This document shows, one piece after another, positions 1 to 33,940 of a stretch of 36,723 nt of DNA. A program made the translations under genes and the position numbers. Every line of letters starts with the position of its first letter. The stretch's first letter is position 1. Origin of the DNA: Chlorobium sp. (lineage in GTDB: Bacteria > Bacteroidota > Chlorobiia > Chlorobiales > Chlorobiaceae); NCBI GenBank assembly GCA_005843815.1, contig SZYA01000063.1, positions 1 through 36,723 of the forward strand. Direction: 5' to 3'. The notes under the pieces are model-generated. The model was given only the letters and a program-made list of their open reading frames with translations. It was not told the DNA's origin and made no database searches.

Positions 1-420
1 ATCCGTCGAGGTGAGGGTGCCGCCAGTACTCAGGTTAGTCGCCAGGTTGCCCTCCGTCACGCTCGCGCTGCTCGTACCGCTGATCACGGCTGCATCATTC
101 GTGCCGGTCATCGTCACCGTCACCACCTGTGTCGTGCCGTCTGCCGCTGCTGCCGTGATGCTGTCGGTGTAGCTCGTGCCGCCGACAAACTCGTTGTGCG
201 CATTGTCTGCTGTGTAGCTCCAGGCTCCTGCCGTGTCGATGCTGAACGTCCCGTAGCCATTACTGCCGGCAACGTTCGTCTGCGCGGTAAAGAGGTTCGC
301 TGTGCCATCAACATCCGTCGAGGTGAGGGTGCCGCTGGCACTGAGGCTGGCAGCCACATTACCCTCCGTCACGCTTGCCGTGCTTGTGCCGCTGATCACC
401 GCAGCATCGTTCGTGCCCGT
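1..420 (-). repeat. VCBS-type coding tandem repeat, period 312 bp (104 aa)
   Basis: ATCCGTCGAGGTGAGGGTGCCGC... at 1 recurs at 313 with high similarity (CCCTCCGTCACGCT, TGATCAC, GTGCC also in register); protein copies AVISGTSSASVTEGNLATNLSTGGTLTSTD and AVISGTSTASVTEGNVAASLSASGTLTSTD. Confidence 0.85.
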
Positions 421-3129
421 GATGCTGAACACTGCGGCAACCGTCTGCGTGGCGCTGCCATCCGTCACCTGTACCGTGAAGCTGTCGCTCACGCTGCTGC
501 TGGCGGTAAGTGCCTGGGTATCCGTATCGCTGTCGTTCAGCGCGTAGCTCACGATGTCTGTCGAGATCGTCAGCGTGGCCGTGCCATAAGTCCCGGTTTT
601 CGTGTAGGTGAGGCCGGTGTCCCTGGTTGCCCAGCCTGCCGTCACCATGGGTGCTGTATCGTAACTCGCCGTACCGTCCACGTCGCCTTTCGTCAGTGTG
701 ATGCTACTCGATGCAGTGCCTGTCGTTGCGTTCGACACGCCGCCTGCCTCCACCAGTGTTGCTGTCGCCGTCCCTGCTGTTATGGTGGGCGCTGCATTTG
801 TGGTAAAATTCAGCGTTATAGCATCGATTATGCCAGCAAACACATTGGGTGTACTCGCTTTGTCGGCGAGAACGCCACTGGCCATCTGCACAGAATAGGT
901 TGTGCCAACATGAAGGTCATTCGTCGGATTAATGGTAACAGTGTTTCCGCTGATTGTTACCTGAGAATCACCTACAGGAATAGTACGTGTATCGCTGGCG
1001 CCATCAGTGATAACTATATTCCCGGTACCAGCCTGAACATCTTCGCTGAACACCAATGCAATGTTACCGCCTGGAGCAATCGCTGTGGCATTATCGGCAG
1101 GAGTGGAGCTGGAGAGCGTCGGAGGAGTGATATCAGGCATACGCAAAACGACATCATTACCCGTGCCTCCTTTGTAGGAAATTTCACGAGATCTCCCACC
1201 TATGACAACCGTTGCCCCTTCTGCCAGACCGGTAAAGGTGCCAACAATTACATCGGTGCCATCATTAGCAATAATGGTAAAGGAATCTGTTGCACCAGGA
1301 ACAAAACTATTGAACGTCGTGATACTGAGCGTTGCTCCTGTCAGAGTGACTGTTCCGTTAACAATGGTTTGATCGTATTGGGTACCAGCAGTCGCACCAC
1401 CAATTTCGACGGAATAGATTGCGCCAGAAGAGAGAACAAGATTGTCGTCAATGGTAAAGGTATTTGCTGCACTCTCTATGCCCAGCTTGCCGCCGCTTTG
1501 TACCGTCGTTGCCCCACCAAATGCGCCACTGCCACCAAAGGCTGCGCCACTGGCAATGGTTGCCGAAGCGGCATTATTGAGAGCACCCGTAATGTTAAAG
1601 GCACCAGCCTCCACGATCAATACACCACTGGCGTAGTTACTGGTGCCGGAAAGGGTTAAAACTCCGGTACCTGTTTTGTATAATTTGGTAGGCACACTGT
1701 TAACTCCACTAATTGTGCCTGACAGGGTGACTGCATAGCTATTTTTGATCGTTCCACCGCCATTATAAGCATTCAGGACAATGTTGTTATCAATGGTAAC
1801 CCCGGAACCAGTGATCTCCAGCACATTGCTTGTACTTACAAGACTCGAGTTACGGCTTAGATAAATAGCGCCAGAGCCAAGGTTGTTATCCCCCGCAATT
1901 ATCAGGGTCGAATCCATCCCGGTAGCGCCAATGTTCGTTGTCGTATAAGTATTATTGGTGCCATTATTGGTGCCCGATAATGTCACGATTCCTCGTTCTA
2001 CACTTAACGCGCCATTACTTATCGCACCGCTCAGCGTAAGTAATGGTCCAGAAACATAAAATACTCCTTTCGAATTAGGTCCTCCCAAATCAACATTACC
2101 ACTCAGGGTGAAATCATTCGAACCACCGACGTACAACCGAGTGTTCGGCTCAAACCGAATGTTATTGGCTATCGTCGGCGCATTATTGTTTTTGTTAATA
2201 CCTATGGAGTAACTACTGGTACTCGTGGCCACTAACGTTGCATTACCAAAGGAGGTACTTGACTCCGCTTCGATAAAGCTGCCAAACATCCTGATATCAC
2301 CAGTGAAACCAGTGTTTGACGTTGAGGTAAATAACAAACTGCTACCACTCAAATTAGCAACTATGGTACCCGAACCCGCCAAAGGCGGCATGAGGTACAA
2401 ACCTTTTCCACTGGCACCTGTAAACGTCATGGTCAAGCCACTGCCCACCGTCAACGTCTTGTTTCCGCCTAAAGCTAATTGACCTTCCTGACGAATCGTC
2501 AGATTCTCTGTCAATGACAGATTGGCAGACAAATTGGATGAAGTATTGGTGAGAGAACTGTCGAATACCAGTGTTTGTGAACCTGTTATATCTGCCGCAG
2601 CAATTGCCACCGCCTCGCTGAAACTCACGCCGTCGTTTACATTTATCGTGGCTGTATCAGTTACATTGGTCACGTAGATGAAGTCGGAGGCAACCGTCAC
2701 ATCCGCTGTGACAGGTGCCCCATCACTCAAAGTAAAGCGAATGCTCGTGTCGCCCGAAGGTTTGGCATTTTTATAGGTGATATGCTTCATCACATCTTCT
2801 ACCAGTGCTTTGGTAGCCACTGTGCCGCCACTGGTAAAATTTACAGACAAGAGTCCGCCTGCATTGGTGAACGTTGCAAAAATACTCCCATTCGAGAGCA
2901 GATTGCCACTACTGACAGTAAAAAGCGCACCTGTGGTATTCAAGGCAAAAATATCGTCGCTCTTGGCGGTGCCCACACGCTGCACCGTCAAGCTCGCACC
3001 GGTCCACGTATCACCATAATCGGCATCGGAAATGGTCAGATCAGATCCCACATCCAGCGTCAGGGCTGTCGCTGCTGCTGTCCAGGTGACAGAACCGCCA
3101 GAAAGGTTATTAATGATTATGTTGGCCAT
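1..3129 (-). CDS. Giant adhesin / repeat-rich extracellular protein, N-terminal part (C-terminus beyond window)
   Basis: Minus-strand frame from ATG at 3129 (MANIIINNLSGGSVTWTAAATALTLDVGSDLTISDADYGDTWTG...) was open wherever I translated it, to base 1. Contains autotransporter-type beta-strand repeat text (YKTGTGVLTLSGTSNYASGVLIVEAGAFNITGAL), an SbsA/Big_5-like Ig domain (TPPTLSSSTPADNATAIAPGGNIALVFSEDV) and VCBS-type repeats (AVISGTSTASVTEGNVAASLSASGTLTSTDVDG). Truncated at the window edge. Confidence 0.88.
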   Translation of the reverse strand, partial: MANIIINNLSGGSVTWTAAATALTLDVGSDLTISDADYGDTWTGASLTVQRVGTAKSDDIFALNTTGALFTVSSGNLLSNGSIFATFTNAGGLLSVNFTSGGTVATKALVEDVMKHITYKNAKPSGDTSIRFTLSDGAPVTADVTVASDFIYVTNVTDTATINVNDGVSFSEAVAIAAADITGSQTLVFDSSLTNTSSNLSANLSLTENLTIRQEGQLALGGNKTLTVGSGLTMTFTGASGKGLYLMPPLAGSGTIVANLSGSSLLFTSTSNTGFTGDIRMFGSFIEAESSTSFGNATLVATSTSSYSIGINKNNNAPTIANNIRFEPNTRLYVGGSNDFTLSGNVDLGGPNSKGVFYVSGPLLTLSGAISNGALSVERGIVTLSGTNNGTNNTYTTTNIGATGMDSTLIIAGDNNLGSGAIYLSRNSSLVSTSNVLEITGSGVTIDNNIVLNAYNGGGTIKNSYAVTLSGTISGVNSVPTKLYKTGTGVLTLSGTSNYASGVLIVEAGAFNITGALNNAASATIASGAAFGGSGAFGGATTVQSGGKLGIESAANTFTIDDNLVLSSGAIYSVEIGGATAGTQYDQTIVNGTVTLTGATLSITTFNSFVPGATDSFTIIANDGTDVIVGTFTGLAEGATVVIGGRSREISYKGGTGNDVVLRMPDITPPTLSSSTPADNATAIAPGGNIALVFSEDVQAGTGNIVITDGASDTRTIPVGDSQVTISGNTVTINPTNDLHVGTTYSVQMASGVLADKASTPNVFAGIIDAITLNFTTNAAPTITAGTATATLVEAGGVSNATTGTASSSITLTKGDVDGTASYDTAPMVTAGWATRDTGLTYTKTGTYGTATLTISTDIVSYALNDSDTDTQALTASSSVSDSFTVQVTDGSATQTVAAVFSITGTNDAAVISGTSTASVTEGNVAASLSASGTLTSTDVDGTANLFTAQTNVAGSNGYGTFSIDTAGAWSYTADNAHNEFVGGTSYTDSITAAAADGTTQVVTVTMTGTNDAAVISGTSSASVTEGNLATNLSTGGTLTSTD

Positions 3130-3230: not shown

Positions 3231-3258
3231 GCTATATCATAAGCAGCGGAGTGGTCAA
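3231..3258 (-). promoter_or_regulatory. Putative sigma70-like promoter for the adhesin gene
   Basis: Minus strand TTGACC (3253-3258), 16-bp spacer, TATAGC (3231-3236), about 100 bp upstream of the ATG at 3129. Confidence 0.45.
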
Positions 3259-3276
3259 AAAACGAATCGCAAAAAG

Positions 3277-3350
3277 TCACAAAACATCACAAAACATCAC
3301 ATTAAGATGATTTTTTGTGATGTTTTGTGATAGAGATCGTGTGTGATGTT
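3277..3350. promoter_or_regulatory. 10-bp-phased direct and inverted repeats, candidate response-regulator operator
   Basis: TCACAAAACA at 3277-3286 and 3287-3296, TCACA at 3297; inverted TTTTTTGTGA 3311-3320 and TGTTTTGTGA 3321-3330; partial unit GTGTGATGTT 3341-3350. Perfect 16-bp arms ATCACAAAACATCACA (3286-3301) / TGTGATGTTTTGTGAT (3316-3331). Confidence 0.6.
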
Positions 3351-3382: not shown

Positions 3383-4099
3383 TCAGATGCTGATAATATC
3401 AGCGGATAAACAGTACCCTTCACCATGGGATGTTTTGACGGGGAACTCACAGCCAGCCTCTTCGATCTTTTTGCGCAGACGGTAGATCATGGATTCAAGG
3501 GCGTGGCTCGCCTGTTCGGTCGAAGGGTAGTCAAGGATTTTCATGATATCCTGGCGGGCTACAATAGTGTTGCTGCGTGAGCTGAGTGAGGCAAGAAACT
3601 CAAACTCCTTGGAGGTCAGTTTAATGGAGTCGCCCTGGGGAGGGGTCAGTCTCCACCCCTTGCGTTCAAGTTTCCACAGCGCCAAAGTATCGGCCTCTCT
3701 CAGCAATTCCTGCTCAACAACCTCAGGCATCTCATCAAGACGCGCAGCAAGATTGGCAATGGTTGCAGCAAGCTCGCTGCAATCGACCGGTTTGACCAGA
3801 TAGAAATCAGCTCCGCATTTCAACCCTGCAAGCTTGTCGTCAAGTGTTGAGCGTGCCGTCAGCATGATAATCCACATACTGGTATTCTTTCGTACATATT
3901 CGGCAAGCACCAGACCGCTCTGGTCAGGAAGCCCGATATCGAGTACAGCAAGCAGGTATGTTTGCTGCGAGAGATGATAGTAAAACTCACCGGCCGAGGC
4001 AGCTCCGGTCACCTCATATCCGAGGAGTGTCAGGTATTCCACCATATTTTCAAGCAGATCCCTGTCATCTTCAACAATAATAATGCGTATTTGTTTCAT
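3383..4099 (-). CDS. OmpR-type DNA-binding response regulator (RR1)
   Basis: Receiver motifs IIIVEDDRDLL, LDIGLPDQSG, MLTA, LVKP; C-terminal winged helix ending RLRKKIEEAGCEFPVKTSHGEGYCLSADIISI. Confidence 0.93.
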   Translation of the reverse strand: MKQIRIIIVEDDRDLLENMVEYLTLLGYEVTGAASAGEFYYHLSQQTYLLAVLDIGLPDQSGLVLAEYVRKNTSMWIIMLTARSTLDDKLAGLKCGADFYLVKPVDCSELAATIANLAARLDEMPEVVEQELLREADTLALWKLERKGWRLTPPQGDSIKLTSKEFEFLASLSSRSNTIVARQDIMKILDYPSTEQASHALESMIYRLRKKIEEAGCEFPVKTSHGEGYCLSADIISI

Positions 4100-4111
4100 T
4101 GAGCATCACTG

Positions 4112-6139
4112 TTAACCTGTTTCATCGTTCGTACTTTTCTCTACCGTATCGGCAAGGGGAAGGCGAACCGTCACCACCATAAGGTCGCCGCTTTTTTCAA
4201 GCCTAACAGAGCCATGATGCCGTTGAATGATCTCCTGCACCAGCCACAAGCCGAGGCCGGAGCCGTTGGTATGACGGCTGTTGCTGCCGCGCTGGTATTT
4301 TTTGAAAAGTTGTTCTGTCTCATTCGTCAAAATGTCGTTGCTTTGATTTTGTACCCTGATAACCACCTCTCCTCCCTCTCCGTGGCAATCAACCTCAATC
4401 GGAGAATCTGGCGGAGAGTATTTCTGCGCATTATCAAGCAGATTAAACAACGCGGTGGCAAGATAGTGTTTTTCAGCATTGATGGCATGGCTGGTGAGCG
4501 ATATGGCAAAGGTAAAGGTACGTTTCGGCCAGAGAGCGCGAACATCCTCAATTTCTGATGCCATGAATGGCGCTAAAAGAGTACGCACGCGTCCCTCCTT
4601 TTCCCGGGAATCAGAAAGCCGGCTTTTTTCAAGCGAAACCTCCATCACCTCAACCAGACGACGAACCGCACGTTTCATTTTATCAAGATCACTACTTTTT
4701 TCAGGGTATTGGCGGTTCACCCTCAGTTCCATGACATCAAGGGAGCTCCGAATAATGGAGAGAGGAGTTCGATATTCGTGCGACACCATAGTCAGAAATC
4801 GCTGCTGCCGTTCCGTTGCCACTCGCTCCATTGCAAGCTCCACACTTTTCAGCTCAGACTCCCTGAGTGCAGCCATTGCCCGTTTTTCCGTTTCCCGAAG
4901 CCTTTCTGCGAGAGCGAGTGTCATGAGTATAACATTGAGCAGAGAGGCATACTGGACATTATTGATGTTCCACAATTCAAGGGGAACCAGGCCAATCAGT
5001 TGCAGGAAACGCATAACAAAACCAAAATTGCTGATGCCGAATGCCAGAAAAAAAATTACGCCTTCGGGTTTATTGTTTTTTACAGCTTTATAACTCAGCC
5101 AACTGACCACAAAAAAGAGAAAAAGCACTCCCAGAGAGGTGAGGGGAGCTATCTCTACAGAAAATCCGAGAGGATTGGCAAGTACCGTAAGAGCGCCAAT
5201 AACCGCCATGAGCCGGAGGTAATGGCTGATTAATGGTGTAAGCTCTTCGGCAAACAGGCGGATTAAAAAAACTGAAAAGAGGAGTATTCCTCCACCCTTT
5301 CCAGTATCAGCGAGATAGTCGGAGATGAGATGGGCTGAGTTTGGCAGGATCAGAGTGAGAATACCACTTATTGAGATATAACTGACACAGACCGCCAAAG
5401 CATAGAGCGCGAAGTAAAGGAAAAGTCTATCCCGAATACGAAGAAAATAGATAAAGTTCAGCAGCGAGATCACGATAAAAATGGCCAGATAGCCGCCCTG
5501 AAACAGCATGTTGGTTTCAGTTTCACGAATCATATCCCTCGGCGTATGAACAGAGACCCCAAAATGCTGGGAACTGGTCGTCTGAACCCTGACGTAAATG
5601 GTGACAGGCGTTTCGAGAGGCAGTGACAAGGGAGCAAAAAAATTGAGTGTTGGCACAGGACGATCAGCGACGGGAATGTGGTCGCCAAGTTGTATCTGGC
5701 GCCAGGATGATGGCCTGGATGGGTCGATGCCTGACTGAATATAAACGGTTACATGATCGAGGTATAACGGGTAAAACCGCAACCATGCCTCTGCGGGAAA
5801 TCGGGAGGTACGAGTCAGCGTAAAGCGCAGCCAGACCGCTTTGTGGCTGTACCCATCGTTGAGATTACCCTTGAGTCGCTTGAAGCCGATGGCATTTTTT
5901 GGATCAAGAATGTCGGCAAGCGTCAATTTTCCTGAGAAATCATCGTACTTGGCAAAGTGTCCGGAAAGTTCAAGAGAGGGTTCACGGTCAAGAATGACGA
6001 CGGTTTGGGCCGCATGGGCCCGGAAACTGAAAAGAGAGAACACAACCATGGCAAGCAACAGCCTGGCTACCAAAATGGTCGTAACAAGTTTTTTTGGCAT
6101 CCCCAAATACATGAGTGCAGTGAGATTCATATTGCACAT
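4112..6139 (-). CDS. 7TMR-DISM-type sensor histidine kinase (HK1)
   Basis: Signal/TM segment, extracellular 7TMR-DISM-like domain, multiple TM helices, H-box SHEYRTPLSIIRSS, N-box LLDNAQKYS, G-box GSGLGLWLV. Confidence 0.92.
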   Translation of the reverse strand: MCNMNLTALMYLGMPKKLVTTILVARLLLAMVVFSLFSFRAHAAQTVVILDREPSLELSGHFAKYDDFSGKLTLADILDPKNAIGFKRLKGNLNDGYSHKAVWLRFTLTRTSRFPAEAWLRFYPLYLDHVTVYIQSGIDPSRPSSWRQIQLGDHIPVADRPVPTLNFFAPLSLPLETPVTIYVRVQTTSSQHFGVSVHTPRDMIRETETNMLFQGGYLAIFIVISLLNFIYFLRIRDRLFLYFALYALAVCVSYISISGILTLILPNSAHLISDYLADTGKGGGILLFSVFLIRLFAEELTPLISHYLRLMAVIGALTVLANPLGFSVEIAPLTSLGVLFLFFVVSWLSYKAVKNNKPEGVIFFLAFGISNFGFVMRFLQLIGLVPLELWNINNVQYASLLNVILMTLALAERLRETEKRAMAALRESELKSVELAMERVATERQQRFLTMVSHEYRTPLSIIRSSLDVMELRVNRQYPEKSSDLDKMKRAVRRLVEVMEVSLEKSRLSDSREKEGRVRTLLAPFMASEIEDVRALWPKRTFTFAISLTSHAINAEKHYLATALFNLLDNAQKYSPPDSPIEVDCHGEGGEVVIRVQNQSNDILTNETEQLFKKYQRGSNSRHTNGSGLGLWLVQEIIQRHHGSVRLEKSGDLMVVTVRLPLADTVEKSTNDETG

Positions 6140-6242
6140 TCTCCTCCTGAACAGAAGAGGAGTTGCCGCTTGAAAAAGTGGTCGTATCGCCCGTAATTTA
6201 TGATAACAAAGAAGAAGTCCCCACTTTTCTGTAACAATTAAC

Positions 6243-6316
6243 TACCCCGCAGCAGAGCTACGGGGTATACATTCATGTATAAGATTTTCTTCCCGAAGCA
6301 AAGCTCCGAGGAATAT
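6243..6316. repeat. Two small palindromic repeat copies between RR2 and HK1
   Basis: TACCCCGCAGCAGAGCTACGGGGTA (6243-6267; 7-bp perfect arms) and related CCCGAAGCAAAGCTCCGAGGAATAT (6292-6316). Confidence 0.5.
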
Positions 6317-6446
6317 GTCCTATAGCCATTTAAAACCATGGCGGGAGCTGCACCTATACCAATATCGATTCTTCGGGCTTCAAAGTACAAAAATCGGGGG
6401 GGGACTACTGATTTCTGTCAGGTAAAGGCTGTATGTGCCGGAAAAA

Positions 6447-7163
6447 TCAAATACTTATAATATCTGCGGATAAACAGTACCCTGTGCCATGGGAGGTTTT
6501 GACGGGAAACTCACAACCTGCCTCTTCAATTTTTTTGCGCAGGCGGGAGACCATCGATTCGAGTGCATGGCTCGCCTGTTCCGTCGAAGGATAATCAAGA
6601 ATTTTCAGGAGATCCCGGCGGGCCACAATGGTTTTTTTTCGGACATCGAGAGATGCAATAAATTCAAACTCTTTTGAGGTCAGTTTAATGGAGTCGCCCT
6701 TGGGAGTGATCAGTATCCACCCGCTACGCTCAAGTTTCCATGGTGCAGATGCCGGTTCCCATCTCTCCTCATCCTCTTCAGGAAACGCAGGCTTCTCATC
6801 AAAACGCGCAAAAACATTGGCAATGGTAGCGGCGAGTTCGCTGCAGTCAATCGGCTTGACCAGATAGAAATCAGCTCCGCATTTCAGCCCTGCAAGTTTG
6901 TCGTCAAGTGTTGAGCGTGCCGTCAGCATGATAATCCACATACTGGTATTTTTTCGTAAATATTCGGCAAGCACCAGACCGCTCTGGTCGGGAAGGCCGA
7001 TATCGAGTACAGCCAGCAGGTATGTTTGCCGCGAGAGATGATAGTAAAATTCACCAGCAGAGGCCGCTCCTGTCACCTCATAGCCGGCAAGCGTCAGGTA
7101 CTTCACCATGTTTTCGAGCAAGTCCCTGTCATCTTCGACAATGATTATTCGTTTCTGTTTCAT
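6447..7163 (-). CDS. OmpR-type DNA-binding response regulator (RR2), paralog of RR1
   Basis: Receiver almost identical to RR1; the same recognition-helix region YPSTEQASHALESM..RLRKKIEEAGCEFPVKTSHG.GYCLSADIISI. Confidence 0.93.
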   Translation of the reverse strand: MKQKRIIIVEDDRDLLENMVKYLTLAGYEVTGAASAGEFYYHLSRQTYLLAVLDIGLPDQSGLVLAEYLRKNTSMWIIMLTARSTLDDKLAGLKCGADFYLVKPIDCSELAATIANVFARFDEKPAFPEEDEERWEPASAPWKLERSGWILITPKGDSIKLTSKEFEFIASLDVRKKTIVARRDLLKILDYPSTEQASHALESMVSRLRKKIEEAGCEFPVKTSHGTGYCLSADIISI

Positions 7164-7175
7164 TGAGCATCTCTG

Positions 7176-9188
7176 TTAACCTGTTTCATCTTTTGTGTAT
7201 TTCTCTACAGTATCGGCAAGGGGGAGGCGAACCGTTACCACGACATGGTGGCCGCTTTTTTCAAGCGTAACAGTGCCATTGTGTCGCTGGATGATCTCCC
7301 GTACCAGCCACAGACCGAGACCGGATCCATTGGTATTATTGCTGTTGCTGCCACGCTGGTATTTCTTGAAAAGCTCTTCTGTCTCATTCGTCAAAATATC
7401 ATTGCTCTGATTTCTTATCCTGATAACGACCTCTTCTCCCTCCCCGTGGCAATCAATCTCAATCGGAGAGTCTGGCAGAGAGTATTTTTGGGCATTATCG
7501 AACAGGTTAAACAAAGCAGTTGTAAGATAATGTTGTTCAGCATCAATTGCATGGTCAGTGAGCAATATGGTAAAGATAAAGGTACGTTTTGGCCAGAGCG
7601 CACGAACCTCTTCAATTTCTGAGGCCATGAATGGCGCTACAAGAGTACGCTCGGCTCCCTCCTTTTCCCTGGAATCAGAGAGACGGCTTTTTTCGAGCGA
7701 AACATCCATCACCTCAACCAGACGACGAACGGAACGCTTCATTTTATCGAGTTCACTCCTGTTCTCAGGGTATTGATCGCTCCTCTGAAGCTCCATAATA
7801 TCAAGGGAGCTTCGGATAATGGAGAGAGGAGTTCGATATTCGTGAGAGATAGTGGCAAGAAAGCGCTTCTGCCGTTCTGTTGCCAACCGCTCTATCTGAA
7901 CCTCCATGAAACGTTGCTCCGATTCACGGAGAGCTTCCCTGGTACGTATTTCGGTTTCGCGCATACGCTCGACAAGTGCCAAGGTTATAAGCAGGATATT
8001 GAGCAGCAAAGAGAACGGGAGGTAATTGATGTTCCACCAGTCGAAGGGCATCAATCCCAGCATTTTGACAAAGTGCAGAAAGTACCCAAGATTGCTGATC
8101 GCGAATGCAACAAAGAGGATTTTTCTCCCCGGTAGTTGCTTTCGGACTGCCTGAATGCTCAACCAGATAACAACAAAAAACAGGCAGAGCACTCCCAGTG
8201 AGGTAATCGGAGCTATCTCGACGTAGTACCCGATTGGATCGGCAAGAGTAGTCAGTATGGCCATGACGGCCATGAACTCCAGATACCATCGGATAGGAGT
8301 TGTCATCACTGGCGCAAAAAGGCGTTGTAAAAATATACAAAACAGAAGTATCGACCCGCTCATACCGATGTCGCCGAAATAATCGGAAACAAGGTGCACC
8401 GAACCAGGCATGATGAGGATCAGAATACCGCTTATGGAGAGGTAGTTGATGAAAAGAGCTATGGCAAAGAGCGAAAAATACAGGAACAATTGATCGCCGA
8501 TACGAAAGAAAAATATGAGGTTCAGCATAGCGATCACCAGAATGATAGTGAGATAGCTACCCTGAGTCAAAATGTTTTTATTAGTAGAGCTTACCTGATC
8601 AGCCTCAGTCTGGACCGTTGCGGTCAGGCTGAGGGGGGTAATGGATTGTACTCGAACATACACCGTGACAGTCCGGCCTTCAGGCAGAAAAACAGGAGCC
8701 AGGAAGTCCGGATCCAAAACAGGACGTTCTGCGGCTGGTATGTGGTCACCAAGGCGAACCCTGCTATACGAAGAGGCCACGGAGGGATTGGGGGCGGTCT
8801 GAATGTATGCGGTAACATAATCCAAATAAGGCGGGCCAAACCGAACCCATGCCTCTGCGGGAAAGCTTAAGGTACGAGTCAGCGTAAAACGGAGCCAGAC
8901 CGCTTTGTGGCTATACCCATCGTTGAGATTGCCCTTGAGTGGCTTGAATGCCACTCTATTTTCAGGATGCAGCATCTCTTCGAAAGTCATCCTCGCCGAC
9001 AGATCGTCAAAGCGCTCTATATGCCCCGCAAGCTCGTATGAGGGGGCTCTGTCGAGAACGAGAGGAACTGCGGCACAAACCACCGGTGAAAACATGCCGG
9101 GCACAAACAACAAAACGTACAACAGCACCGCAACGAATGCGAGAAGCTTTCCGATGTTTCGCTTATGGGGGGCCGATGCTGCATTCAT
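7176..9188 (-). CDS. 7TMR-DISM-type sensor histidine kinase (HK2)
   Basis: Paralog of HK1; H-box SHEYRTPLSIIRSS, N-box LFDNAQKYS, G-box GSGLGLWLV; more divergent sensor half. Confidence 0.92.
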   Translation of the reverse strand: MNAASAPHKRNIGKLLAFVAVLLYVLLFVPGMFSPVVCAAVPLVLDRAPSYELAGHIERFDDLSARMTFEEMLHPENRVAFKPLKGNLNDGYSHKAVWLRFTLTRTLSFPAEAWVRFGPPYLDYVTAYIQTAPNPSVASSYSRVRLGDHIPAAERPVLDPDFLAPVFLPEGRTVTVYVRVQSITPLSLTATVQTEADQVSSTNKNILTQGSYLTIILVIAMLNLIFFFRIGDQLFLYFSLFAIALFINYLSISGILILIMPGSVHLVSDYFGDIGMSGSILLFCIFLQRLFAPVMTTPIRWYLEFMAVMAILTTLADPIGYYVEIAPITSLGVLCLFFVVIWLSIQAVRKQLPGRKILFVAFAISNLGYFLHFVKMLGLMPFDWWNINYLPFSLLLNILLITLALVERMRETEIRTREALRESEQRFMEVQIERLATERQKRFLATISHEYRTPLSIIRSSLDIMELQRSDQYPENRSELDKMKRSVRRLVEVMDVSLEKSRLSDSREKEGAERTLVAPFMASEIEEVRALWPKRTFIFTILLTDHAIDAEQHYLTTALFNLFDNAQKYSLPDSPIEIDCHGEGEEVVIRIRNQSNDILTNETEELFKKYQRGSNSNNTNGSGLGLWLVREIIQRHNGTVTLEKSGHHVVVTVRLPLADTVEKYTKDETG

Positions 9189-9342
9189 GAACTACTCCGT
9201 CATACTCGGTATAAATCGCTTCGTCTACTGTAGTAATCCAGCCGATTAACGTATAAAGCAATCATCGTTCATGCAGAAACAATTACCAACTCAGAACCCA
9301 AAGCCGCGCTCCGCAGATGAGCTCTTTTCAAAGGTAAAACAA

Positions 9343-9407
9343 TTTCAGCTTTTATTGCTAAACAGTATTCACGGCATCCAAGCCGACGAATGAGAGACTC
9401 AATTCAT
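9343..9407 (-). pseudogene. Probable relic of a third response regulator gene downstream of HK3
   Basis: HK2/RR2 junction AAAGATGAAACAGGTTAACAGAGATGCTCAATGAA aligns with HK3 tail AAAGATGAAACACCATTAATAGAGAAGCTCAATGAA up to the RR start codon; about 45 nt further on, SLIRRLGCREYCLAIKAEI loosely resembles the RR C-terminus (SMIYRL...HGEGYCLSADII). Confidence 0.5.
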
Positions 9408-11448
9408 TGAGCTTCTCTATTAATGGTGTTTCATCTTTTGTGGATTTCTCTACCGTATCGGCAAGAGGAAGGCGAACTGTCACCTCGACATGGTCGCCGC
9501 TCTTTTCAAGCGTAACAGTGCCATTGTGTCGCTGGATGATCTCCTGCACCAGCCACAGACCGAGACCAGAGCCATTGGTATTATTGCTGTTGCTGCCACG
9601 CTGGTATTTCTTGAAAAGCTCTTCTGTCTCATTCGTCAAGATGCCATCGCTCTGATTTTTTATCCTGATAACGACCTCATCTCCCTCTCCGTGGCAATCA
9701 ATCTCAATCGGAGAGTCTGGCAGAGAGTATTTTTGGGCATTATCGAACAGGTTAAACAAAGCAGTCGTAAGGTAATGTTTTTCAGCATCAATTGCATGGT
9801 CAGTGAGCGATATGGTAAAGATAAAGGTACGTTTCGGCCAGAGCGCACGAACTTCTTCAATTTCTGAGGCCATGAATGGCGCTACAAGAGTACGCTCGGC
9901 TCCCTCCTTTTCCCTGGAATCAGAGAGACGGCTTTTTTCGAGCGAAACATCCATCACCTCCACCAGACGACGAACCGCACGCTTCATTTTATCAAGCTCA
10001 CTCCTGTTTTCGGGATATTGGTCGCTCATTTGAAGGTTCATGATATCAAGGGAGCTTCGGATAATGGAGAGAGGAGTTCGATATTCGTGAGAGACCATCG
10101 TCAGGAATCGCTGCTGCCGCTCCGTTGCCACTCGTTCCGTTGCCAGTTCCACACTCCTGAGCTCCGACTCCCTGAGTGCAGCCATTGCCCGTTGTTCAGT
10201 CTCCCGAAGACGCTCGGCGAGAGCGAAGGTCATGAGGACAATATTGAGCAGAGAGGCATACTGGATATTGTTGATGTTCCACCATCCAAGGGGAACCAGA
10301 CCGAGTAGTTGCAGAAAATGGATAAAATAACCAAGATTGCTGATGCCGAATGCTATAAAGAAAAGCTGGCCTCCGGGTTTATTGTTTTTTACAGCTTTAT
10401 AGCTCAGCCAACTGACAACAAAAAAGAGAAAAAGCATTCCAAGAGAGGTGACAGGGGCCATCTCAATATAAAAGCCGAGTGGATCAGCAAGTATGGTGAG
10501 AGCACCAATAACCACCATGAGCTTGAGGTATCGGCGGGTAAAGGGGGTAAGCTCTGTAGCAAAAAGGCGGATTAAAAAAACTGAAACGAGGAGTATGCCT
10601 CCACCCTTTCCAATATCAGCGAGATAGTCGGAGACAAGATGGGCCGAGCCAGGCAGAATCAGGCTGAGAATACCGCTTATGGAGAAATAATTGATGGAGA
10701 CAGCCAGGGCGTAGAGCGCAAAGTAGAGGAAAAGTCGATCCTTAATGCGCATAAAATAGATAAAGTTCAGTAGCGAGATAACGATGACAATGGCCAGATA
10801 GCCGCCCTGAAAGAGGATGCTGGTACTCGTTTGGCGGTTCATGTCTGTCGGGGTATGCACAGAAGCCCCAAAATTCAGGGAGCTGATAGCCTGTACCCGA
10901 ACGTAAATGGTGACAGGCGTTTCGAGAGGCAGCAACAAGGGGGCTAAAAAGTCGGCGTTCGGCACCGGACGATCAGCAACGGGAGTGTGGTCGCCGAGGA
11001 GTATCTTGCGCCAGGAAGAGGCGCTGGATTGATCATGGCCTGTCTGAATGAAAACGGTGACGTGATCCAGGTAGGGCGGGTAAAGCCGTAACCATGCCTC
11101 TGCAGGAAACCTGGAGGTGCGAGAGAGGGTAAAGCGCAGCCAGACCGCTTTGTGGCTGTACCCATCGTTGAGGTTCCCCTTGAGCTGCGTGAAGCCAATG
11201 GCATTTTTGGGGTTAATTATGTCGGCAAGCGTCAGTTTTTCAGTGTGGTCGTCATAACGCTCCATAAATCCCGACAGCTCAACGCGGGGGGCGCGGTCGA
11301 GGATAACCGGCATTACAGCGCCTGCCTGCAATGGAGACAAAAGAGATGTCAGGAGAACAAGCAGCATCACTACCACAACGGAGATGGAATGTTTCCCGAA
11401 TCTTCGCCGGTGGGCGGATGCCTTTTCCGCTCTCGCCATGCTTTTCAC
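9358..11448 (-). CDS. 7TMR-DISM-type sensor histidine kinase (HK3), orphan, with extended C-terminus
   Basis: Sensor half like HK1, kinase half like HK2; ends DETPLIEKLNELSLSFVGLDAVNTV where HK1 and HK2 end DETG. Confidence 0.92.
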   Translation of the reverse strand: MKSMARAEKASAHRRRFGKHSISVVVVMLLVLLTSLLSPLQAGAVMPVILDRAPRVELSGFMERYDDHTEKLTLADIINPKNAIGFTQLKGNLNDGYSHKAVWLRFTLSRTSRFPAEAWLRLYPPYLDHVTVFIQTGHDQSSASSWRKILLGDHTPVADRPVPNADFLAPLLLPLETPVTIYVRVQAISSLNFGASVHTPTDMNRQTSTSILFQGGYLAIVIVISLLNFIYFMRIKDRLFLYFALYALAVSINYFSISGILSLILPGSAHLVSDYLADIGKGGGILLVSVFLIRLFATELTPFTRRYLKLMVVIGALTILADPLGFYIEMAPVTSLGMLFLFFVVSWLSYKAVKNNKPGGQLFFIAFGISNLGYFIHFLQLLGLVPLGWWNINNIQYASLLNIVLMTFALAERLRETEQRAMAALRESELRSVELATERVATERQQRFLTMVSHEYRTPLSIIRSSLDIMNLQMSDQYPENRSELDKMKRAVRRLVEVMDVSLEKSRLSDSREKEGAERTLVAPFMASEIEEVRALWPKRTFIFTISLTDHAIDAEKHYLTTALFNLFDNAQKYSLPDSPIEIDCHGEGDEVVIRIKNQSDGILTNETEELFKKYQRGSNSNNTNGSGLGLWLVQEIIQRHNGTVTLEKSGDHVEVTVRLPLADTVEKSTKDETPLIEKLNELSLSFVGLDAVNTV

Positions 11449-30998: not shown

Positions 30999-32750
30999 CT
31001 ACGCCATCAGCCCCGCCAGCCGCTCCAACCCGGTAGGTTCATCCTTCAATAACGGCACAACAGCGTATCGCTTTGCATGGTGGTGAGCCACAGCCTCAAT
31101 CTCTTTGAGTTCATTCTGTGCCCGTTGGCGCAACAGCGTGGAGGTGGTCGAGGCTGCCGCAACGCTGTTATTGATAATCCATGCCCAGGGTTCAATGGCT
31201 GCCCGCCGCAGCTCCTGCTGGAGATTGGCTGCCTCCAGCACCGGCGTTGTTTCGGCGAGCGTGACCAGCAGCACCTTGGTCAGTGCCGGATTCTGCATCT
31301 GCATCATCGGCGTTACCTCAGTCAATCCATCACTCCGCGTCTGGCGGGCAAATTCGCGATGATAGGCTCCGGTGGCATCAAGCAGCAGAAGCGTATGGCC
31401 GGTTGGTGCTGTGTCCATCACCACAAACTTTTGATCGGCCTCACTGATAATGCGGGAAAAGGCCTGAAACACAGCGATCTCTTCGGTGCAGGGCGAACGC
31501 AAATCCTCTTCGAGCAGGGCACGCCCTTCGGCATCAAGCGCCATCCCCTTGCTCTTCAGCACCTCCGTGCGGTAGCGTTCAGTCTCGGCCTCTGGGTCAA
31601 TACGGCTCACGGTAAGATTCTCCACGGATTCCGTTAAGGTCTCGGCAAGATGCGCCGCCGGGTCAGAGGTGCTGAGATGAACCGGCAGACCCCGACGCGC
31701 CAGTTCAACAGCAAATGCAGCCGCAAGTGTTGTTTTGCCAACACCACCCTTTCCCATAAACATCACCAGACCACGCCCCTCAGCAGCAAGAGCATCAACC
31801 AGTGATAAAAGTGGTGGCGCATGACAAGAGACCGCCTCCGTTCTCTCTTGAGACAATGAGGAGGTTACGCCAGAAAAAAGTTGGTGCAAAGCATCCAGCC
31901 CGACAAGGTTAAAGGGTTTGAGCAAAACCTCATCGGTTGGCAACCGCTTGAGCTGAAGAGGTAGTGCAGCCAAAACAGCCTGTTCACGGGCCAGAATGGC
32001 TGATGCCAGCGGATCAGAGGCAGCCTCAGTATCGGGAAAAACTCCGTTAATCACCAGATACTGCCGGGCAATGCCGATAGCCGCAAGCTCCTCACTGGTT
32101 CGGGCAACCTCATGCAGGGCTGCCTGCTGGGCACGAGCTACAAGCACCAGACGGGTACGCTCCGGGTCAGCCAGCGCATCAACCGCAGCCTTGTACTGGT
32201 CGCGCTGCTTCTGCAGACCTGCCAACGGGCCAAGGCAGGAGCTGTCACCTTTTCCAGTTTCAAGAAAGCCGCTCCAGGCACCAGGCAATTGCAGCATCCG
32301 TATGGTGTGGCCGGTGGGCGCCGTATCAAAAATGATGTGGTCGAAATCTGCGGTGAGCGCTGTATCAGTCAGCAGTGAGGTGAACTCGTCAAAGGCTGCA
32401 ATCTCGGTGGTACATGCTCCCGAGAGCTGCTCCTCAATACTTCGAACAACCGCATCGGGCAGGAGGCCGCGCACCGGTTCGACAAGACGATCACGATATT
32501 TCCGGGCGGCATCCTGCGGATCAATCTCAAGGGCCGAAAGAGAAGGTACCGAAGGGAGAGCTGTTATCTGATTGCCAATGGTAACACTAAAAACCTGGCC
32601 AACATTGGAGGCCGGATCAGTACTGACAAGCAGCACCCGCCTCCCCGACTCAGCAAGGGAGATCGCGGTGGCACAGGCAATTGAGGTCTTTCCAACGCCG
32701 CCTTTTCCGGTGAAAAAGAGAAAGCGCGGTGGCTCTGCAAGAAATTTCAT
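30999..32750 (-). CDS. arsA: Arsenite-activated ATPase ArsA, two-domain form
   Basis: Two P-loops FFTGKGGVGKTSIACA and MFMGKGGVGKTTLAAA; two DTAPTGHT motifs. Confidence 0.95.
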   Translation of the reverse strand: MKFLAEPPRFLFFTGKGGVGKTSIACATAISLAESGRRVLLVSTDPASNVGQVFSVTIGNQITALPSVPSLSALEIDPQDAARKYRDRLVEPVRGLLPDAVVRSIEEQLSGACTTEIAAFDEFTSLLTDTALTADFDHIIFDTAPTGHTIRMLQLPGAWSGFLETGKGDSSCLGPLAGLQKQRDQYKAAVDALADPERTRLVLVARAQQAALHEVARTSEELAAIGIARQYLVINGVFPDTEAASDPLASAILAREQAVLAALPLQLKRLPTDEVLLKPFNLVGLDALHQLFSGVTSSLSQERTEAVSCHAPPLLSLVDALAAEGRGLVMFMGKGGVGKTTLAAAFAVELARRGLPVHLSTSDPAAHLAETLTESVENLTVSRIDPEAETERYRTEVLKSKGMALDAEGRALLEEDLRSPCTEEIAVFQAFSRIISEADQKFVVMDTAPTGHTLLLLDATGAYHREFARQTRSDGLTEVTPMMQMQNPALTKVLLVTLAETTPVLEAANLQQELRRAAIEPWAWIINNSVAAASTTSTLLRQRAQNELKEIEAVAHHHAKRYAVVPLLKDEPTGLERLAGLMA

Positions 32751-32768
32751 GATTCTGTTGTGTAGAGA

Positions 32769-33131
32769 TTAGCAGCAGCAACCGGTTGAACAGCAGCTCT
32801 TTGAAGGTTTTGAACCATCACTTGCGGCATCAATGCCTGACCAGCGGATCAGCTCATCGCGGGTTGGATAGCGGCCCGTCAAGATGACTGCGCCATCAAG
32901 AAGAATCAACGGCAACCCCTCCTGCCCGGCATGTTCGAGAAATGTTTTCACCTCAGAATTTTCAGCGAAAGCCATAGGCTGATGAGCAAGATTAAAACGA
33001 TCAATCGCAACACCATTCTGCCTGGCCCAATCGACATCAGCCGCAAAAGTGACCAGCGCCTGATCAACCTCAACACCACACACTCCTGTAGAGCAACAGA
33101 GTGCAGGATCAAAAACTTGAATCTGTTTCAT
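32769..33131 (-). CDS. arsD: Arsenic metallochaperone / trans-acting repressor ArsD
   Basis: MKQIQVFDPALCCSTGVCGVEVDQALVTFAADVDWA; Cys-rich tail SCCSTGCCC; adjacent to arsA. Confidence 0.93.
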   Translation of the reverse strand: MKQIQVFDPALCCSTGVCGVEVDQALVTFAADVDWARQNGVAIDRFNLAHQPMAFAENSEVKTFLEHAGQEGLPLILLDGAVILTGRYPTRDELIRWSGIDAASDGSKPSKSCCSTGCCC

Positions 33132-33206
33132 GGTACATCTCCTTTAATTGTAAATAATTAAAAAATCACACTGCGGCTTCACCCGAACCCGGAGAGAGAC
33201 CGTTTT

Positions 33207-33509
33207 TCAGGAGCAGCAACCACCATGACTCTTCTCCTTGCTGCCATGAGTTCCGCAGCAACAGCCCGATGATGAGGCGGTAAGCAACTCTTTGAGCTCA
33301 TCATAGGAGGGAATACGCCCTTTGCAGACCACTTTTTCATCAACCACAAGCGCCGGAGTGGTCATCACATTGTAGGCCATGATCTTCTGCAGATCCTCAA
33401 CCTTTTCCACAACAGCATTAAGACCCTCTTTTGAGATGACAGATTTGACAGCATCAACAAGCTGATTGCAGGTTGAACAACCACTGCCAAGAACTTTTAT
33501 CTTTTTCAT
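33207..33509 (-). CDS. Thioredoxin-fold small redox protein with Cys-rich C-terminal tail
   Basis: MKKIKVLGSGCSTCNQLVDAV CxxC motif, MTTPALVVDEKVVCKGRIPSYDEL; tail SGCCCGTHGSKEKSHGGCCS. Start set at 33509. Confidence 0.9.
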   Translation of the reverse strand: MKKIKVLGSGCSTCNQLVDAVKSVISKEGLNAVVEKVEDLQKIMAYNVMTTPALVVDEKVVCKGRIPSYDELKELLTASSSGCCCGTHGSKEKSHGGCCS

Positions 33510-33571
33510 TGTATTACTATTTATAGTGTTATAGACAACAGACAACAATCAGGAACAGACTCAACAACTAC

Positions 33572-33940
33572 TCAACGGCACATATCTTCCTGTGCTCCCT
33601 CTGAAATCGGGCAACCACACTCAAAGACTCGCTCCGGGGCAAAAAAAACTGCAAAAACAGTGTTAGCCTTCAGCCAGCTCTCCTGATTGATGCAGTAACG
33701 AACTTTGGGAGGATTTATCTCACCCTGTATCAACCCTGCTTCAAGAAGAGCCTTCAGATGCTGTGAAATGGTTGACTGAGCCATAGGTATAAGTTCCGTC
33801 AACTCCCCGGTAAAACAGCATTGCTGACTGGCAAGAAGCTGTAAAATTTTTACCCTCACCGGATGGCTCAGGGCCTTTGCAAACACGGCAACAGCCGACT
33901 CCTCACCGCTATACTCTACTGCCAACAGGGTTCTTTTCAT
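33572..33940 (-). CDS. arsR: ArsR/SmtB-family winged-helix repressor
   Basis: FAKALSHPVRVKILQLLASQQCCFTGELTELIPMAQSTISQHLKALLEAGLI; terminal Cys cluster ECGCPISEGAQEDMCR. Confidence 0.92.
   Translation of the reverse strand: MKRTLLAVEYSGEESAVAVFAKALSHPVRVKILQLLASQQCCFTGELTELIPMAQSTISQHLKALLEAGLIQGEINPPKVRYCINQESWLKANTVFAVFFAPERVFECGCPISEGAQEDMCR

Follow-up and report, generated by a model that had tools for sequence, protein, structure and literature searches.

Three 7TMR-DISM histidine kinases and two near-twin OmpR-type response regulators (RRs), encoded on one strand of a Chlorobium contig and leading into a surface adhesin gene, appear with fair probability to constitute a many-to-one two-component network that converges at the RRs or at their operator and sets adhesin expression. 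Such an arrangement suggests that the cell may weigh several signals before turning sticky. The window, i.e., the whole stretch of DNA analysed (36,723 nucleotides), is the entire 36.7-kb contig of a metagenome-assembled genome (MAG; 1.9 Mb in 128 contigs; G000 in the following), in which the genes are transcribed from the minus strand in the order HKa, HKb, RRb, HKc, RRc, adhesin. The sequence-only reading had described three 7TMR-DISM kinases and two RRs on one strand running into an adhesin open reading frame (ORF), and its coordinates and domains check out:

9358..11448, minus strand: HKa, 7TMR-DISM histidine kinase with a type A sensor (assigned by the sensor tree); its frame runs about 21 codons beyond the usual end
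9495..9990, minus strand: HKa part of the homogenised core tract, a putative gene conversion tract with tree incongruence, nearly identical to HKb 7250-7745
9403..9412 (approximate), minus strand: end of homology behind HKa; the kinase–RR spacer and the first RR bases (CTCAATGAA) are kept, the remaining RR is absent
7176..9188, minus strand: HKb, 7TMR-DISM histidine kinase with a type B sensor (type B clade 100/100)
7250..7745, minus strand: HKb part of the homogenised core tract, partner of HKa 9495..9990
6447..7163, minus strand: RRb, OmpR-type response regulator
4112..6139, minus strand: HKc, 7TMR-DISM histidine kinase with a type A sensor, sister to that of a kinase in genome G083
3383..4099, minus strand: RRc, OmpR-type response regulator
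3308..3330, plus strand: iterons in inverted orientation that precede the operator and make up an inverted repeat together with it
3254..3304, minus strand: iteron operator comprising some four 10-bp units (TGTGAtGTtT...) and conserved across 9 genomes
3232..3241, minus strand: putative -10 element (TATGATATAG) downstream of the operator, at a similar position in relatives
1..3129, minus strand: N-terminal 1043 aa of the adhesin (Big_5, cadherin-like, and VCBS repeats), which runs off the contig

All three kinases combine 7TMR-DISMED2, 7TMR-DISM_7TM, HisKA, and HATPase_c domains above the Pfam cut-offs and contain the H, N, and G boxes. HKa is without an RR of its own, a point absent from the sequence-only reading. 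RRb and RRc consist of Response_reg and Trans_reg_C domains (Pfam), with BasR/PmrA and PrrA as the nearest solved structures, and display the receiver with a conserved Asp and the winged-helix output typical of OmpR/PhoB-type regulators. No other close relatives of HKa, HKb, or HKc were found in the same genome, and the named matching relatives are all Chlorobiaceae MAGs. A dispersed repeat of about 100 bp with two hairpins lies between RRb and HKc (window 6235-6335); four further copies (79-92% identity) occur on contigs C94, C46, C11, and C61. Farther along, window 30999-33940 holds a probable arsenic-resistance cluster encoding, as judged from sequence, a two-domain ArsA-like ATPase as well as ArsD-like and ArsR-like proteins.

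The stretch between RRc and the adhesin (AATGTGATGTTTTGTGATGTTTTGTGACTTTTTGCGATTCG) consists of 10-bp direct repeats preceded by inverted copies and shows a lag-10 periodicity (P 5e-5). In 9/9 Chlorobiaceae genomes with close kinase orthologs, the RR is followed by a related array. Identity within the array is 80%; the corresponding values are 59% and 51% for its two flanks and 71% for third codon positions of the RRs. OmpR/PhoB-type regulators bind tandem direct repeats spaced by roughly one turn of the helix; the 10-bp iterons are present and conserved. A model of the operator, searched over 86 family genomes, scored 40-62 bits only behind those RRs; it was built from the very loci later found, so that these matches arise by construction, and what is informative is that other strong sites are lacking and that one extra match turned up in G083. 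The latter, the next in rank (26.9 bits, contig C10, position 103262), lies outside the model-building set and constitutes a partial operator with a SapC gene and a large protein with an LEPR-type start downstream; all other scored candidates remained below 17 bits, with a limited number of first-look candidates scored per genome, such that weak sites may escape. RR 3′-flank-like sequence stands before the G083 partial operator. Further operators in the window's own genome amounted to weak partial matches, and none was found before HKa, HKb, or HKc; there is therefore no sign that the kinase operon is autoregulated. Binding of tandem repeats is a known habit of OmpR-type regulators, and we infer from this habit and from the co-occurrence of RR and operator that the iterons are the probable RR binding site.

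The sequence-only reading held that the DNA target had stayed fixed, and a single conserved iteron operator before the adhesin and a shared recognition helix both point that way. Operator-bearing RRs share QASHALESMxxRLRKKIE and VKTSHG, a motif essentially restricted to them in a tblastn comparison; other RRs of the family, 46-56% identical, differ in recognition helix and wing. The recognition region, reported as identical, is nearly but not fully so: the letters elided there are IY in RRc and VS in RRb, and the wing reads HGEGY versus HGTGY. The residue preceding RLR in the recognition helix is accordingly Y in one RR and S in the other. Taking this Y/S difference as a sign of different DNA targets was rejected, since the position varies (Y, H, C, or S) among orthologs that share the operator. 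The receivers are near-identical, as had been noted, with 89% DNA identity. Substitution rates were also taken domain by domain. At the winged-helix (wHTH) end (codons 201-225), a pS of 0.53 versus a pN of 0.03 is indicative of real purifying selection. In receiver codons 51-100, pS is only 0.12-0.17, and the likeness of the receivers therefore partly reflects recent exchange or local DNA constraint rather than protein selection alone.

Sensor DNA identity is 82% between HKa and HKc and 63-65% between HKb and either of them, which bears out the proposed split of HKb versus HKa and HKc. The kinase cores of HKa and HKb are about 95% identical; over most of the core (~500 bp) pS is near 0.1, as compared to roughly 0.5-0.9 in their sensors, a pattern that marks exchange among the copies. 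HKb clusters in the sensor tree with the type B kinases of genomes G055, G066, and G074 (100/100) and HKc with the G083 kinase (99/98), while HKa falls among other type A kinases in an unresolved branching order. The core tree makes HKa the sister of HKb (99/99) and places the type B cores from other genomes next to the type A core of G074 (100/99). Keeping type B as one clade in the core tree was rejected (p-AU 1.3e-6), as was keeping HKa and HKb together in the sensor tree (p-AU 4e-5), values to be taken as guides since the groups were named after the identity tables had been seen. Gene conversion of the cores and replacement of the sensors both fit, and such an event seems to have occurred at least twice. 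The three sensors belong to lineages that predate the species split, attached to cores that were homogenised or recombined. Given the disagreement between core and sensor trees, the earlier notion of inputs diversifying in place is only half right: the sensors are indeed distinct, but as old sensor lineages on shared cores they did not simply diversify where they stand. An ORF at a contig end in G066 (C72, 3482-3943) fuses a 25-aa conserved sensor stretch straight to a kinase core, by deletion or an assembly join.

Kinases without an adjacent RR recur in this family. The 3′ region of HKa retains a 118-nt match (88%) to the HKb–RRb junction that ends in RR codon 2, and in G082, between the same glycosyltransferase and aminotransferase flanks, an RR and the operator come after an HKa-like kinase. 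This homology and the G082 arrangement point to either the deletion of an RR or the insertion of a block behind HKa. In the second cassette of G074, the RR is reduced to its two ends. The G074 locus (contig C173) holds the cassette twice, with two operators. No RR stands behind the type B kinases of G055, G066, and G074; as these genes are nearly identical, their RR-less state may go back to one event. Kinases outnumber RRs in several genomes, as counted by genes rather than by events on a tree. More distant kinase–RR pairs, at loci L059, L061, L062, and L063, have behind them a conserved receiver protein of some 140 aa that stands alone.

The genes behind the operator differ among genomes. 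In G000 and G083, the next gene encodes a giant repeat protein (VCBS, Ig-like, DUF4347). The window's adhesin combines large size with VCBS/Ig-like repeats (TIGR01965, Big_5, cadherin-like), and its relative in G083 comprises at least 4582 aa. In G055, G053, G066, G074, and G010, a ShlB-type exporter and a TPS/ESPR haemagglutinin are found where the contig is long enough, with a 290-aa ORF and a second RR intervening in G010. This ORF (L057, 11721-12593), without a Pfam match, lies directly behind the operator and between the two RRs. In G054, an adhesin-like start is visible for its opening codons only, and in G082, where the RR is frameshifted, a transposase behind the operator precedes an ORF with YDG/MBG surface-protein domains. 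One and the same sensor–regulator–operator unit is thus tied to different surface proteins. PrtD-type exporters are present in the window's genome, and a search for an LssB-type exporter gave no match above the cut-off; type I export is the predicted route for the adhesin, whose C-terminal secretion signal would lie beyond the contig end. We propose, tentatively, a regulatory cassette of uncultured Chlorobiaceae—7TMR-DISM kinases, an OmpR-type RR, and the iteron operator—that would evolve by recombination within the kinases, with sensors kept apart, cores homogenised, RRs beside extra kinases lost, and the adhesin behind the operator exchanged for one of another secretion type. If so, sensing and payload would both be swappable around a fixed core.

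The phosphotransfer, operator binding, and activation steps of the proposed circuit are predictions. Ligands would govern the balance between kinase and phosphatase activity in the three membrane kinases, which, by way of different periplasmic sensors and nearly interchangeable cores, would phosphorylate the two RRs and, given their HExxT motif, probably also dephosphorylate them. HKa, sharing its core with HKb and lacking an RR of its own, would most likely address RRb, and HKc would address RRc and possibly RRb as well. Both RRs are predicted to bind the same iterons, immediately ahead of the adhesin promoter, and to act as activators, recruiting polymerase to the nearby -10 element. The signals would converge on the RRs, and at the latest on the shared operator. 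HKc and RRc carry unusual charges at or near the interface that would match, so that this pair may be partly insulated; HKa and HKb would then share RRb, with convergence at the operator. RRc could be sufficient alone, with RRb redundant.

It is unlikely, in our view, that HKb-RRb and HKc-RRc constitute two insulated pairs meeting only at the operator, with HKa as a degenerating orphan. Such a view can draw on a Glu in receiver helix 1, found among operator-bearing RRs only in RRc (Lys in RRb and all operator-bearing orthologs), at what we take from our own alignment to be an OmpR specificity position, and on an RVNR stretch close to where DHp helix 1 ends, confined to HKc (Q(M/R)SD in HKa and HKb). 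These charges suggest some HKc-RRc insulation. The altered C-terminus of HKa and its missing RR likewise fit an orphan in decay. Against this, HKa retains all catalytic motifs, an open frame, and a core hardly different from that of HKb; RR-less kinases recur in other genomes with intact frames; and the main DHp specificity positions, equivalent to those that decide partner choice in EnvZ (T250/L254/A255; PMC2991266), are identical (S/S/S) in 3/3 kinases. Tandem duplication with no special role, leaving copies that drift and share a target as any duplicates do, agrees with the tandem order, the 3064-bp repeat spacing, and an RR tree so poorly resolved that RRb and RRc may be sisters, a relationship that was not rejected. 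However, the sensors are not recent copies—type B is shared with G055, G066, and G074 and was rejected as sister to HKa—and neither the low wHTH pN/pS nor the excess of kinases over RRs in several genomes would be expected, which renders this reading decidedly unlikely.

The iteron array might instead serve as a terminator, an RNA hairpin, or a site for another regulator, and the inverted repeat in the window does fold strongly as RNA (z -7). An RNA structure was nonetheless rejected, as the fold is strong in the window alone: ten sequences yielded no conserved structure (-0.09 kcal/mol, no compensatory pairs), and there is no Rfam match. Conservation resides in the 10-bp direct repeats, and the array co-occurs with this RR clade, so that a role apart from the RRs is very unlikely. 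An artefact of metagenome assembly from long repeats, affecting the array order or the near-identical core tract, would be conceivable for a locus at a contig end, seen in one assembly of a fragmented MAG; yet the copies differ at scattered sites inside the core tract, and a core/sensor mismatch occurs independently in G074, making this highly improbable. The many-to-one network remains our preferred reading, and with it green sulfur bacteria would gain a candidate control circuit for the decision to adhere.

The usual expectation is that two-component pairs turn insulated once they have been duplicated. The comparative data on this locus point in the opposite direction: the cores look as if kept alike by recombination while the sensors stay distinct, and RRs beside extra kinases are lost. 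The specific operator makes it possible to test at one promoter if evolution can favour cross-talk.

Several sensors feeding one output are known from the sporulation kinases acting on Spo0F and the quorum-sensing kinases acting on LuxU/LuxO. These systems pass the signal through an additional phosphotransfer protein, and most of them are not linked, whereas the present locus is a local array with direct RRs. In Bordetella, the two-component system BvgAS lies beside, and controls, a two-partner-secreted filamentous haemagglutinin, much as proposed here for the adhesin; BvgAS, however, relies on a single hybrid phosphorelay kinase and a NarL-type regulator, without multiple sensors. The suggestion that the arrangement might be undescribed was too strong, since many-to-one kinase networks are known, some of them with 7TMR-DISMED2 kinases governing adhesion (PMC7695008). 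In Pseudomonas, LadS and RetS, acting with GacS, are 7TMR-DISMED2 orphan kinases whose output includes adhesion and biofilm formation; calcium is sensed by the LadS DISMED2, and a carbohydrate-binding module is part of the one in RetS (PMC7695008). HKa resembles them in having a DISMED2 domain and no RR, and the convergence of orphan kinases on one output would be a further likeness. In contrast, the Pseudomonas orphans reach a distant regulator through GacS, a hybrid kinase, and an Hpt relay, whereas HKa, HKb, and HKc, in which Pfam detects no receiver or Hpt domain, are simple HisKA kinases with a shared core that lie in one cluster with the target gene and OmpR-type RRs. Chlorobium chlorochromatii, of the same family, is known to have RTX-type surface proteins of very large size (PMC4053972), although the parts of that source describing them report no linked sensor array or operator. 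Among the publications listed by literature searches, none matched on kinase paralogs with gene conversion or on tandem kinases beside adhesins. The interpretation of the sequence-only reading is in part supported, and the operator and the recombination history sharpen it.
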